From assembly GCF_015351235.1 (NCBI RefSeq), contig NZ_JADKSJ010000001.1, positions 1,939,668-2,003,667 on the forward strand: 64,000 nt of DNA, written 5' to 3'. A model generated the notes under the pieces. The model saw only the letters and a list, made by a program, of their open reading frames with translations. It was not told the origin of the DNA and made no database searches. The stretch's first letter is position 1; every line of letters starts with the position of its first letter. This DNA is from Plantibacter sp. VKM Ac-2880. Its GTDB lineage: Bacteria > Actinomycetota > Actinomycetes > Actinomycetales > Microbacteriaceae. The position numbers were made by a program, and so were the translations under genes. Below are positions 19,567 through 26,001 of this stretch, in pieces.

Positions 19567-22047
<2,481 letters not shown>

Positions 22048-22089: not shown

Positions 22090-23247
22090 TCAGCGCAACC
22101 AGCGCATCGTGTAGGCGTCGGCGAGCACCGGCATCATCGGGCCGTTGAGGGCGGCCCACAGGCCGAGGTCGCGGACGCCGACGAGGGGCGCGGGGATCGG
22201 GCGGCCCAGGCGCATGTTGAGCGCCGCCTGCCAGGATGCACGTCCGACCGCGCGCCGCTGCTGTTCGGCGGCGGCCGCGAACTCGCGCTCGAGCGTCCCT
22301 CGCCCGGTGACCGCGCGCGCGACCAGTGGCGCGAACACGCGGGCGTCCGCCCAGCCGAGATTCATGCCCTGGCCGCCGATCGGGCTGATCTCGTGCGCGG
22401 CGTCGCCCACGTGCACGATCCGTCCGTCGAGCACACGGCTCCGACGACGACTCCGCACCCCGAACGCACTGAGCATCGTGTTCGTCGCCGCAGCGGCCTC
22501 CTCGCCGGTGCGATCCGCGACGAGGGTCGCGAGGTCATCGGCAGTCGGCTGCGCGCCCGCCCCCTCGCGAGGGGACGTGTACCCGGTGTGGACGACATAC
22601 CGGCGCATCCCGCGGGGGAGCGGGAACGACTCGACGACACCGTCACGATGCAGGTGGACCCGCGCGATGGGCCCGGCACCACTCCGGTCTGCGACGTCGC
22701 CCATGAGGTAGCGGTCGCGGTACCGGTGGATCGGTCCGGGATCCTCCGCTCCAGGGAACCCGGCTCGCCCACCGGCTGCGACGATGACCATGGTTGCACG
22801 AGCGCTCACAGGGCCGGAGGCGTCGGTCCCCTCGACGACGACCTCGTCCCCGACGGTGCGGACACTCGTGCACGCGGTCCCCGTCGACAAGGACCCCGGG
22901 GCGATGGACTCCAGGCGCGCACGGAGGATCCGCTCGGTCCGCCACTGCTCGAGCGCGGCGACATACGGGTGGGCGACCGGACGATCACGGAACACGACGG
23001 TGCCGAGTCGCCGACCGCCGCTCCACGCCTCACCCCGGTCGACTCGGACGGCGTCGACGCGGATGTCGTCGAGGACGCCGAGGTCGTCGAACAGCTCGAG
23101 GGAGGGCGGGTGGATCCCGATCGCCCGCGTTCCCGACGGAGGGTCCACCCGTCGCTCCCAGACCGTGACGTCGACGCCGTCCTGGGCGAGCAGGATCGCC
23201 GCCGCCAGTCCGACCGGTCCGCCGCCGATGACGAGCACCCCGGTCAT
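22090..23247 (-). CDS. FAD-dependent monooxygenase (PHBH family)
   Basis: Flavoprotein hydroxylase of 385 residues. The N-terminal Rossmann motif is VLVIGGGPVGLAAA, the C-terminal FAD motif is VHVGDAAHEISPIGGQGMN, and the central region fits aromatic-ring hydroxylases that turn phenols into hydroquinones. I chose ATG 23247, which overlaps the methyltransferase stop as ATGA. It is the last gene of the type III polyketide operon and probably hydroxylates the polyketide ring, as SrsC does in Streptomyces phenolic lipid synthesis (analogy). Confidence 0.9.
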   Translation of the reverse strand: MTGVLVIGGGPVGLAAAILLAQDGVDVTVWERRVDPPSGTRAIGIHPPSLELFDDLGVLDDIRVDAVRVDRGEAWSGGRRLGTVVFRDRPVAHPYVAALEQWRTERILRARLESIAPGSLSTGTACTSVRTVGDEVVVEGTDASGPVSARATMVIVAAGGRAGFPGAEDPGPIHRYRDRYLMGDVADRSGAGPIARVHLHRDGVVESFPLPRGMRRYVVHTGYTSPREGAGAQPTADDLATLVADRTGEEAAAATNTMLSAFGVRSRRRSRVLDGRIVHVGDAAHEISPIGGQGMNLGWADARVFAPLVARAVTGRGTLEREFAAAAEQQRRAVGRASWQAALNMRLGRPIPAPLVGVRDLGLWAALNGPMMPVLADAYTMRWLR

Positions 23248-23960
23248 CGGCGTTCGTCCGCCGTCGCGTCGAAGCGCCTCGACAGCAGCAGCCGCATGGG
23301 GAATCGACGCTCGACGACCCATCCGTCGGGGACGACCTCCTGGAGTTCCTGTTGCCGGTAGCTGCGGCGGATGGAGCGGAGCCCGTCGACGTGGAGGAAG
23401 GAACGCCGCCGTCCAGGAAGGGTGACGAGTCCGTACGCCGCGTACGCCAGCCGGTCCCGCTCCAGGTCGCTGTGCAGCACGAGGCCTCGGGCGATGGAGG
23501 CGCTGTCGGACAGGAGGCCGCCGAGCTGGGCCGCGTCGAGGTGGTGCAGGACATGGTTGGACAGCACGATGTCGACCTGATCGCCCCGGGCGACCAGGTC
23601 GCTGCTGTGCGCCGCTCGGAAGTCGACCGGTCCGTCGGCGTACCTCCGGCGCGCGAAGGCGACCGAGCGCTCATCGGGGTCGATCGCGGTGACCTGGGCC
23701 GGCAGCCCGTCGGCTCGCGCCCAGGAGGCGATGGCCGAGGGGACGTCACCGCCGCCGAACCCGATGTCGAGGATCGTCGTCGTGCGCGACGGGTCCAGAC
23801 GAGGCCGGATGTGCGAACGGTAGAGCCCGCGCCAGCCCGAGACGAGCCGGTTCACGGTCGCGAACCGGGCATAGGTCGCATCGAGGAGCACGGGGTCGCA
23901 CTCGGGGTCGTCCATGAGTTCGACGAGCTCCGTCGCACGCCGTGTGAGATCGGCCCGCAT
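23244..23960 (-). CDS. Class I SAM-dependent methyltransferase
   Basis: A 238-residue Rossmann-fold methyltransferase: motif I LDIGFGGGDVP, acidic motif II TAIDPDE and a later VLSNHVLHHLD. The ATG overlaps the polyketide synthase stop by one base (TGATG), and its own stop overlaps the FAD gene, so all three are translationally coupled. It probably O- or C-methylates the polyketide product. It differs from the membrane-type methyltransferase of the srs operon, so product chemistry may differ. Confidence 0.88.
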   Translation of the reverse strand: MRADLTRRATELVELMDDPECDPVLLDATYARFATVNRLVSGWRGLYRSHIRPRLDPSRTTTILDIGFGGGDVPSAIASWARADGLPAQVTAIDPDERSVAFARRRYADGPVDFRAAHSSDLVARGDQVDIVLSNHVLHHLDAAQLGGLLSDSASIARGLVLHSDLERDRLAYAAYGLVTLPGRRRSFLHVDGLRSIRRSYRQQELQEVVPDGWVVERRFPMRLLLSRRFDATADERR

Positions 23961-25087
23961 CAGGCTCCGCCGGCGTGAAGCCGGAGCAGCGCGCTCTCGA
24001 TCGTGAGTCCTGGGCCGAACGCCAGCGCGCAGACGCGTTCGTCGACCTCGGGGCCCGCGCCGTCGAGGAGACGCTTCAGGATGAACAGCACGGTGGCACT
24101 CGACATGTTGCCGAAGTCGCGCAGTACCGCCCGCGACGGTTCCAGCAGCTCGTCGTCGAGGGCGAAGCCGCGTTGGACGCGGTCGAGGATGCTGCGACCA
24201 CCGGGGTGGATCGCCCACCGGTCGATCGATGACACGTCGGCGTCGTCCGCCGCCGCGAGGAGTGGGCGCAGCGCGATCTCGAGGTGCTCGCCGATGAGTT
24301 TCGGCACGGCTCCGCTCAGGACCATCTCGAATCCGTGGTCGCCGATCGTCCAGGCCATCTCCGTCTCGCCGTCGGGGACGAGCGCTGTGGACCACCCGTC
24401 GAACTCGAGCACCGGAGCATCGGACGGGGCGGGGCGTGCCGATACGACGGCGGCCGCCGCGCCGTCTGCGAAGACGGAGGAGCCGAGGATCACGTCAGGA
24501 TCGTCGGACGACCGGAGGTGGATCGAGCACAGCTCGACACACACCACGAGTACGACCGCGTCGGGATCGGCTGCGCAGAAGGCCTGCGCGGCACGCAGCG
24601 CCGGGAACGCGGCGAAGCACCCTTGGAAGCCCAGGTGGTAGCGCTCGGTGCCCGGATCGAGACCGAGGTCCCGGACGAGCAGGTACTCGGGCCCCGGTGC
24701 GAAGAAGCCGGTGCAGGACGCGGTCACGACGTGGGTCACGTCGGCCGTCGTCAAACCGTGTGCCTGGTCGAGCGCTCGCCTCGCCGCCTCCAGGAGGAGT
24801 GGGGGAGCGTGCTCGATGTAGGCGTCGTTCCGGAGGCCGGTCGGGGGTGAGCCGACGAGGCGCTGCTCGGCGTCGTAGAACGCAGCCGTGGTCGTCGGGA
24901 CCTCATCGTCGAACGCGTCGATGACGGTGTGCCTCGTGTCGATCGCCGAGGCGTCGAAGGCGGCACCGATCAGTCGTTGCGCGAGGCGCGTCCTGCCGGG
25001 TTGATCACGGAAGACGTCTCTGATCTCGTCTTGATGGAGGATGGTCTGAGGAACGGCCACGCCGATCGCCCTCACGGAGACGGTCAT
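23960..25087 (-). CDS. Type III polyketide synthase (chalcone/stilbene synthase family)
   Basis: Condenses malonyl-CoA onto a starter acyl-CoA without an acyl carrier protein and cyclises the chain. The 375-residue protein has the full triad: Cys 157 in GFQGCFAA, His 294 in WAIHPGG and Asn 327 in DFGNMSS, plus the C-terminal GPGLTIE motif. I chose ATG 25087 because a TACAAT -10 box ends five bases upstream, which starts the message at the ATG; a longer in-frame start at 25120 would lie in the promoter of the divergent gene. Likely products are alkylresorcinols, alkylpyrones or related phenols; the starter is unknown. Confidence 0.93.
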   Translation of the reverse strand: MTVSVRAIGVAVPQTILHQDEIRDVFRDQPGRTRLAQRLIGAAFDASAIDTRHTVIDAFDDEVPTTTAAFYDAEQRLVGSPPTGLRNDAYIEHAPPLLLEAARRALDQAHGLTTADVTHVVTASCTGFFAPGPEYLLVRDLGLDPGTERYHLGFQGCFAAFPALRAAQAFCAADPDAVVLVVCVELCSIHLRSSDDPDVILGSSVFADGAAAAVVSARPAPSDAPVLEFDGWSTALVPDGETEMAWTIGDHGFEMVLSGAVPKLIGEHLEIALRPLLAAADDADVSSIDRWAIHPGGRSILDRVQRGFALDDELLEPSRAVLRDFGNMSSATVLFILKRLLDGAGPEVDERVCALAFGPGLTIESALLRLHAGGA

Positions 25088-25134
25088 GCTCCATTGTATC
25101 GCCGTCGTCCGGACGGCCACCCTAAGCTGAGGCG
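25088..25134. promoter_or_regulatory. Compact divergent promoter of the polyketide locus
   Basis: Only 47 bp separate the two start codons. Minus-strand TACAAT (25093-25098) and plus-strand TAAGCT (25123-25128) are -10 boxes placed 5 and 6 bases before the ATG and GTG. The -35 regions must overlap, so one bound regulator could control both sides. Confidence 0.6.
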
Positions 25135-26001
25135 GTGTTCTCCACCGCCCGTCGTCTGTTCGCGTCCTCCCATCCCGGACCCACCGTCGCGGTCACCGTC
25201 CTGGCCGTCGTCCTGGCCTCCGCCGTCGGGGTCCACCCGCTCCGGACGGTGCTCCTGGCGCTGGTGGTCTTCGTCGGTCAACTGTCGATCGGGTGGTCCA
25301 ACGACTGGCTGGACGCACGTCGTGACCTCCGGTCGGGGCGGTTGGACAAGCCCGTCGCGCGTGGTGACCTCAGCGTCGGGACGGTCCGTCTGGCGGCGCT
25401 CCTGGCCGGAGCCGCGAGCATCCCGCTCTCGTTCACCCTCGGCTGGGCGGCGGCGGCGGCACACCTGCTCTTCCTCGCGTGCGGCTGGGCCTACAACCTC
25501 CATCTCAAATCGACCGCGTGGTCGGTGGTCCCGTTCATCATCGGGTTCGGCGCGCTGCCGGCCGTGGTCACGTTCGCGGTAGTCCCGCCCATCCCGCCGG
25601 CCGGTTGGACCCTCGCCGTCGGCGGCCTGTTCGGCATCGCGATCCACTTCACGAACGCGCTGCCGGACCTCGACGACGATCTCCGGACCGGCGTCCGCGG
25701 GCTGCCGCACCGACTCGGAGCACGGACGGCTGGCAGGGCGGCGTTCGGGGCGCTCGGGCTGGCGGGGGTCGTTGCCGTGCTCGGACAGAGCGGCGTCTTC
25801 TCCGGGCGCTTGTCCGCGCCACCGCTCGTCGGCGTCATCGGAGCCGCCGGAGTCCTCGGGCTCGTGATCTGGGGGCTCGTGCTGGTCGGAAGCCGTCAGC
25901 CGGACCGGACCCTGTTCCGGCTCATCATCGGTGCCGCGCTGCTCGTCACGGTGGTCCTGGCCGTCGCGGGCACGAACCTCGGAGTCGTCAGTACCAGTTG
26001 A
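25135..26001 (+). CDS. UbiA family prenyltransferase
   Basis: Integral membrane enzyme that moves a prenyl group from a diphosphate onto an aromatic acceptor; 288 residues, about eight or nine helices. The first Asp-rich motif is NDWLDARRD (residues 56-64). The second is PDLDDDLRTG (near 177-186). Both bind the Mg-diphosphate. The GTG start has no ribosome-binding site and sits where TAAGCT would start transcription. It is divergent from the polyketide operon, which makes a prenylated phenol or quinone plausible. Its last 14 bp overlap the convergent lytic gene. Confidence 0.9.
   Translation: MFSTARRLFASSHPGPTVAVTVLAVVLASAVGVHPLRTVLLALVVFVGQLSIGWSNDWLDARRDLRSGRLDKPVARGDLSVGTVRLAALLAGAASIPLSFTLGWAAAAAHLLFLACGWAYNLHLKSTAWSVVPFIIGFGALPAVVTFAVVPPIPPAGWTLAVGGLFGIAIHFTNALPDLDDDLRTGVRGLPHRLGARTAGRAAFGALGLAGVVAVLGQSGVFSGRLSAPPLVGVIGAAGVLGLVIWGLVLVGSRQPDRTLFRLIIGAALLVTVVLAVAGTNLGVVSTS

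Follow-up and report, generated by a model that had tools for sequence, protein, structure and literature searches.

The locus described here lies within a 64,000-nucleotide stretch of the genome of Plantibacter sp. VKM Ac-2880 (GCF_015351235.1, contig NZ_JADKSJ010000001.1, positions 1,939,668 to 2,003,667 of the forward strand), referred to below as the window. It encodes a type III polyketide synthase (PKS), a class I S-adenosylmethionine (SAM) methyltransferase and a flavin adenine dinucleotide (FAD)-binding aromatic hydroxylase on the minus strand, and a UbiA-family prenyltransferase on the plus strand (Table 1). These genes constitute a genuine and conserved set of four enzymes, of a kind already known, in which the prenyltransferase is the part deserving attention: UbiA is partnered with type III PKSs far more widely than the window alone suggests.

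Table 1. Features of the locus and its surroundings, in window coordinates (CHS, chalcone synthase).
Feature	Position	Strand	Description
Type III PKS	23960..25087	-	375 aa; Cys157-His294-Asn327; Trp246 at the CHS Gly256 column; P0001
Class I SAM methyltransferase	23244..23960	-	238 aa counted from ATG; NF004851/PRK06202 family; P0002
FAD_binding_3 aromatic hydroxylase / UbiH-like flavoprotein	22090..23247	-	385 aa
UbiA-family prenyltransferase	25135..26001	+	288 aa; GTG start; both Asp-rich motifs; P0004
Intergenic region between PKS and UbiA	25088..25134	.	47 bp, divergent
Candidate -10 hexamer TACAAT	25098..25093	-	5 nt before the PKS start codon
Candidate -10 hexamer TAAGCT	25123..25128	+	6 nt before the UbiA start codon
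MFS transporter gene	20557..22047	+	ends just past the FAD gene
Aldo/keto reductase gene	19567..20394	-	beyond the MFS transporter gene

All four proteins exceed their Pfam cut-offs (Chal_sti_synt_N/C, Methyltransf_25/11, FAD_binding_3 and UbiA, respectively). The PKS stop codon overlaps the methyltransferase start in TGATG, and the methyltransferase stop overlaps the FAD gene start in ATGA. The gene positions, the complete Cys-His-Asn triad, both overlaps and the 47-bp gap had been given in a preliminary description of the locus, and all are borne out by the coordinates and the alignment. The PKS, the only one of type III in the genome according to a PF02797 search, contains the N and C domains of chalcone/stilbene synthases together with their triad; Cys157, His294 and Asn327 align with the catalytic residues of the plant and Dictyostelium enzymes and are invariant in 78 of 78 sequences (the window and 77 relatives). 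The methyltransferase matches NCBIfam NF004851 at 300.6 bits (cut-off 243), and a PDB sequence search with it gave no match at E up to 0.001. In the NCBIfam scan the FAD protein shows similarity to aromatic hydroxylases and to enzymes of the UbiH type, reaching the cut-off of none of the 25 families listed out of 77.

The prenyltransferase belongs to the UbiA superfamily, with a PF01040 match and the two Asp-rich motifs that the preliminary description had reported, N56D57xxD60xxxD64 and D178xxxD182. Residues N56, D57, D60, D64, R69, K72, Y120, K125, H171, N174, D178 and D182 are invariant in 75 of 75 sequences (the window and 74 PKS-linked UbiA proteins). Seven named NCBIfam UbiA subfamilies match at E up to 0.001, none of them at its cut-off (the best, PRK12884, at 56 of 269 bits), and neither a single-sequence nor a profile search of the PDB returned a match at E up to 1. 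The genome encodes three other UbiA-family proteins, namely L082 and two that were scanned against NCBIfam, a MenA (L083) and a PRK13105-type prenyltransferase (L085). Because a separate MenA is present, the window UbiA was rejected as a candidate for the cell's MenA. In a UbiA tree the window-type sequences (24 rows plus L145) group together with strong support (100/99); the tree served for this grouping only and not for placing the root, since two of its three outgroup rows (L083 and L085) were read in the wrong frame.

Genomic neighborhood analysis establishes the linkage of UbiA with type III PKSs. A UbiA alignment searched against 396 genomes of the order (E at most 1e-15) gave a UbiA hit in 97, and a corresponding PKS alignment search matched a type III PKS in 172. 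The two co-occur strongly, with a PKS match in 95 of the 97 UbiA genomes vs 77 of the 299 that lack UbiA (Fisher p about 1e-40, shared ancestry not corrected); one of the two UbiA genomes lacking a PKS match (G017) has a PKS beside UbiA in its fetched stretch (L157). Approximately 7 kb on each side, less at contig ends, was fetched for 96 UbiA hits, that is, all but the window's. UbiA does not consistently stand apart from the other genes, the outcome that the preliminary description had named as contrary to it: a type III PKS adjoins UbiA in 75 of 97 cases (the window and 74 of the 96 fetched), with matched domains at most 2190 bp apart and the pair in several orientations. Chance neighborhood of the four genes was rejected, as the frequency expected by a rough estimate (14 kb in 4 Mb) is well under 1%. 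Of the 74 PKS-linked fetched loci, 18 have a PKS of the window type (type A), and the PKS of the other 56 is distinct and lower-scoring (type B). All 18 type A loci contain methyltransferase and FAD matches, and a stricter non-overlap tally retains the methyltransferase in 16. Clustering of neighborhood genes, performed on 26 loci, was crude, with antisense frames also clustering, and only genes later matched to profiles were used.

The PKS-methyltransferase-FAD core has a wider distribution than the four-gene set. Among the best 80 of 394 PKS relatives, several of them on contigs that end early, the nearest to the window's are from Plantibacter (91% identity). A methyltransferase match lies beside the PKS in 80/80 loci and a FAD match in 73/80, whereas the UbiA of the window has a counterpart within reach in 10/80; the core is therefore widespread and UbiA an optional partner. 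Three of these ten are Plantibacter loci with the divergent layout of the window, and the other seven, from Leifsonia, Okibacterium, Pseudactinotalea, Serinibacter and Sanguibacter, have UbiA convergent behind the FAD gene. The emphasis of the preliminary description on a different methyltransferase class holds only in part: class I is confirmed and no ICMT match was found in the window protein, but a methyltransferase accompanies every one of the 80 related PKSs, and the class I enzyme was rejected as what makes the window locus special.

A PKS tree, built by a quick method with SH-aLRT support only, places the UbiA-linked PKSs in two groups (11 rows, and 18 rows plus L005) beside one group of 63 without UbiA; three more rows without UbiA (L008, L055, L065) branch near the base, and L005, a row scored as lacking UbiA, is a contig end. 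This topology fits an old association with UbiA followed by later losses, although several forks are open and the counts cannot prove the direction. Some core loci depart from the common layout. Herbiconiux and Mycetocola loci (L008, L055 and L065, whose flanks are complete, and L014, which is short) keep the PKS and methyltransferase and have no FAD match. Agrococcus sp. Marseille-P2731 (L060, L061) carries two PKS copies with identical tree rows; they face opposite ways on a single contig, approximately 12 kb from each other. A record from Sporosarcina (Bacillota; L031) contains an Arthrobacter-like PKS-methyltransferase-FAD operon, and the closest partner of its PKS in the tree is an Arthrobacter row; horizontal transfer or contamination would explain this.

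Beyond the order, 296 genomes of the class were surveyed, a few of them shared with the order set, with PKSs found by PF02797; UbiA matched in 160 and a type III PKS in 161. From other orders, 104 listed UbiA rows score 170 bits or more. A PKS is nearby in 65 of these: 50 lie within 10 kb of a listed PKS, and 15 come from the 24 rows whose PKS position was unlisted and whose surroundings were fetched, one of the 15 (L214) showing a partial PKS at a contig end. A PKS is found elsewhere in the genome for 12 of the 104 rows, and none was detected in the genome for 18. Across these loci the UbiA-PKS pair occurs with three unrelated tailoring sets, so that the link persists where the methyltransferase and flavoprotein are swapped for unrelated enzymes. 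Set A, that of the window, consists of an NF004851-type class I methyltransferase and a FAD_binding_3 hydroxylase. Set B, which is srs-like, combines an ICMT with a FAD protein (PF04140 and PF01494, confirmed in one locus); at E 1e-15 the 56 type B loci show ICMT matches in 54 and FAD matches in 54 (39 and 54 by the stricter tally), and in 47 of 56 UbiA and the PKS occupy opposite strands, with matched domains 49-1255 bp apart. Set C, the loseolamycin gene set, pairs a UbiG-like methyltransferase with an acyl-CoA-dehydrogenase-fold flavoprotein and was found in 8 of the 40 loci fetched outside the order; the methyltransferase is present in 8/8, the three scanned scoring 62-94 bits on UbiG, under the cut-off of 103, and the flavoprotein has this fold in the two scanned.

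Several lineages carry UbiA relatives in other settings. Those of L196-L202 and L204-L211 (family codes f16, f17 and f8) have neither a PKS nor an adjoining UbiG-like methyltransferase in the fetched stretch, though a PKS occurs elsewhere in the genome. The f44 genomes (1.2-2.2 Mb) contain a low-scoring UbiA relative, with a type III PKS match only in G581, and among ten f32 genomes with UbiA only G446 has a PKS.

The locus probably encodes a single pathway, in which an alkylresorcinol is formed and then methylated, hydroxylated and C-prenylated to give a phenolic lipid of the membrane. Malonyl units would be added to a fatty acyl starter by the type III PKS, and aldol closure would then yield a 5-alkylresorcinol, as Trp246 and the known relatives suggest. 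The class I methyltransferase and the FAD hydroxylase, judging from their families and from the srs, pkq and hid precedents, would act on the ring to produce an alkyl (hydro)quinone. UbiA, predicted from its family and motifs to be integral to the membrane, would C-prenylate the ring or its hydroquinone, a role to which its conserved partnership with type III PKSs points. In 9 of 136 loci, all with type B PKSs, UbiA is accompanied on its own strand, at a distance of 21-132 bp, by a gene resembling those for geranylgeranyl reductases; the three scanned exceed the TIGR02032 cut-off. Such a neighbor is what transfer of an isoprenoid by UbiA would lead one to expect.

The following observations weigh against this assignment. 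Prenylation by UbiA is a step that we infer, and no product is known; the loseolamycins described in the excerpted text of PMC7587189 carry no prenyl group, though only losA was activated there. No PKS lies nearby for 22 of the 97 UbiA hits in the order (19 of these score under 200 bits, and L145 sits on a broken contig in a genome that has a window-type PKS) or for 39 of the 104 rows outside it, a count from which weaker and unlisted rows were dropped. Of the 81 genomes of the order with a window-type PKS (at least 455 bits), 20 carry UbiA and 61 do not, and the three-gene core therefore exists without it. In the window itself UbiA is divergent from the PKS, a layout that does not imply co-expression. 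Finally, no geranylgeranyl reductase lies beside UbiA in the window or in 127 of 136 loci.

A rather unlikely alternative is that the PKS, methyltransferase and FAD protein make a methylated alkylresorcinol or alkylquinone of the usual kind, resembling hierridin or the srs or PkQ products, while UbiA serves a separate, co-regulated isoprenoid reaction on another acceptor. The 61 PKS genomes lacking UbiA, the UbiA homologs whose surroundings, or whose entire genome, yielded no PKS, and the position of UbiA on the other strand in the window are what this explanation would predict. It accounts less readily for an adjacency that recurs over many family codes, three tailoring sets and several orientations, or for the near absence in the order of UbiA genomes without a PKS. 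The earlier view of the four genes as one modified-phenolic-lipid locus is supported, with the qualifications that UbiA is optional and prenylation a predicted step.

Alkylresorcinol operons built around a type III PKS occur commonly among actinobacteria, and to our knowledge their native end products are mostly unknown. In many of these operons the prenyltransferase appears as a regular partner, kept while the methyltransferase and flavoprotein are exchanged. If prenylated alkylresorcinols or alkylquinones exist, they would add a new class to the meroterpenoid lipids of bacteria, one that might act in respiration or in membranes. A further proposal, which is possible but doubtful, is that UbiA attaches a long polyprenyl chain to the methylated, hydroxylated polyketide ring and that in some lineages the chain is reduced by an adjacent geranylgeranyl reductase. 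Were the proposal correct, many Actinomycetes would make an isoprenoid quinone whose ring derives from a type III PKS, not from chorismate or tyrosine, possibly as a second respiratory lipoquinone beside menaquinone.

The ring chemistry and starter of the PKS were assessed from alignments only, including the arguments on its pocket and tunnel. Trp246, which stands where CHS has Gly256 and is matched by a Trp in Steely1 (2h84), presumably corresponds to Trp281 of ArsB. The column holds Trp in 78/78 window-type PKSs, in 51/56 type B (ICMT-type) PKSs, the other five having Phe, and in 16/16 further PKSs aligned, a set that includes seven of type C. Many bacterial type III PKSs yield pyrones in vitro, which lends some weight to the idea that this PKS forms alkylpyrones and that the remaining enzymes act on something else; we regard this as highly improbable in view of the invariant Trp, since ArsB, which forms resorcinols, has Trp281 where the pyrone-forming ArsC has Gly (PMC9927152, in the part available). 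By its presumed match to that site, Trp246 points to resorcinol cyclization by the window PKS.

The starter leaves more latitude. Plant cannabinoid-type meroterpenoids arise from a type III PKS, a UbiA-type prenyltransferase and a flavoenzyme, and by analogy a short or aromatic starter could give a short-chain resorcinol or another small phenol that UbiA then prenylates. Consistent with this, the best NCBIfam model for the PKS is DpgA (153.6 bits, far under the cut-off of 425), and the Plantibacter PKSs (4 of 78, the window included) have the CHS-like residues Gln155 and Phe158 flanking the catalytic Cys, where the other 74 have Met and Tyr; this substitution may change starter choice or pocket chemistry. 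We nevertheless regard the short-starter possibility as improbable, given that among comparable enzymes a C14 acyl starter is reported for HidC (PMC8086630, in the portion seen) and C16-C18 hydroxy fatty acids for losA (PMC7587189, likewise in part). A fatty acyl starter, leading to an alkylresorcinol, is the preferred assignment.

In the intergenic region, an alignment of the window with the three Plantibacter loci shows TAAGCT identical in all, and the hexamer on the PKS side reads TACA[A/C]T. A sigma-70 consensus scan found no promoter. Divergent promoters at these candidate hexamers would be leaderless, which is hypothetical and a guess.

Several characterized systems share parts of this architecture. 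SrsB we take to be an ICMT-type methyltransferase. The srsABC operon of Streptomyces griseus likewise combines a PKS, a methyltransferase and a hydroxylase, producing methylated alkylresorcinols and quinones (PMC9927152, in part). In contrast, the window methyltransferase (P0002) matches class I models without an ICMT match, and it is the type B loci that resemble srs. The mycobacterial/Streptomyces PkQ cluster, pkqABC, also comprises a PKS, methyltransferase and oxidoreductase, with Trp at the resorcinol-determining site; the quinols listed bear only an alkyl tail, and the word UbiA is absent from the text available (PMC9927152), as it is from that of PMC5916927, while the corresponding text of PMC5552033 names a carotenoid UbiA-like prenyltransferase. 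The cyanobacterial hierridin operon hidABC and the planctomycete mtr-fdo-t3pks operons again join a methyltransferase, an oxidoreductase and a type III PKS in alkylresorcinol formation, with the PKS gene last in most of them and first in the window (PMC10896814, PMC8086630; both in part). No UbiA is named for these operons in the sections available, bar one cyanobacterial hid-like cluster with a prenyltransferase (PMC8086630). Sets of methyltransferase, oxidoreductase and type III PKS genes are thus already described in these two papers.

Two published loci come closest with respect to the prenyltransferase; in the open-licence literature, as far as its accessible text goes, no test of a PKS-adjacent UbiA was found, and these two papers (PMC7587189, PMC8779670) list such a gene. 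The loseolamycin (los) locus of Micromonospora endolithica contains adjacent genes for a UbiA-family prenyltransferase, a methyltransferase, a flavoprotein and a type III PKS (Table 1 of PMC7587189), and activation of losA alone yielded 5-alkylresorcinols, two of them solved by nuclear magnetic resonance (PMC7587189, in part). Its flavoprotein appears there as an acyl-CoA dehydrogenase, like that of type C loci, whereas the window has an NF004851-type methyltransferase and FAD_binding_3; the los-type gene set is accordingly found in type C loci and not in the window. The Gephyromycinifex locus places UbiA beside an srs-like PKS-ICMT-FAD operon. It differs from the window in its ICMT-type methyltransferase and in its assignment to angucycline biosynthesis, and in the part of the report available a prenylation step is proposed for it (PMC8779670).

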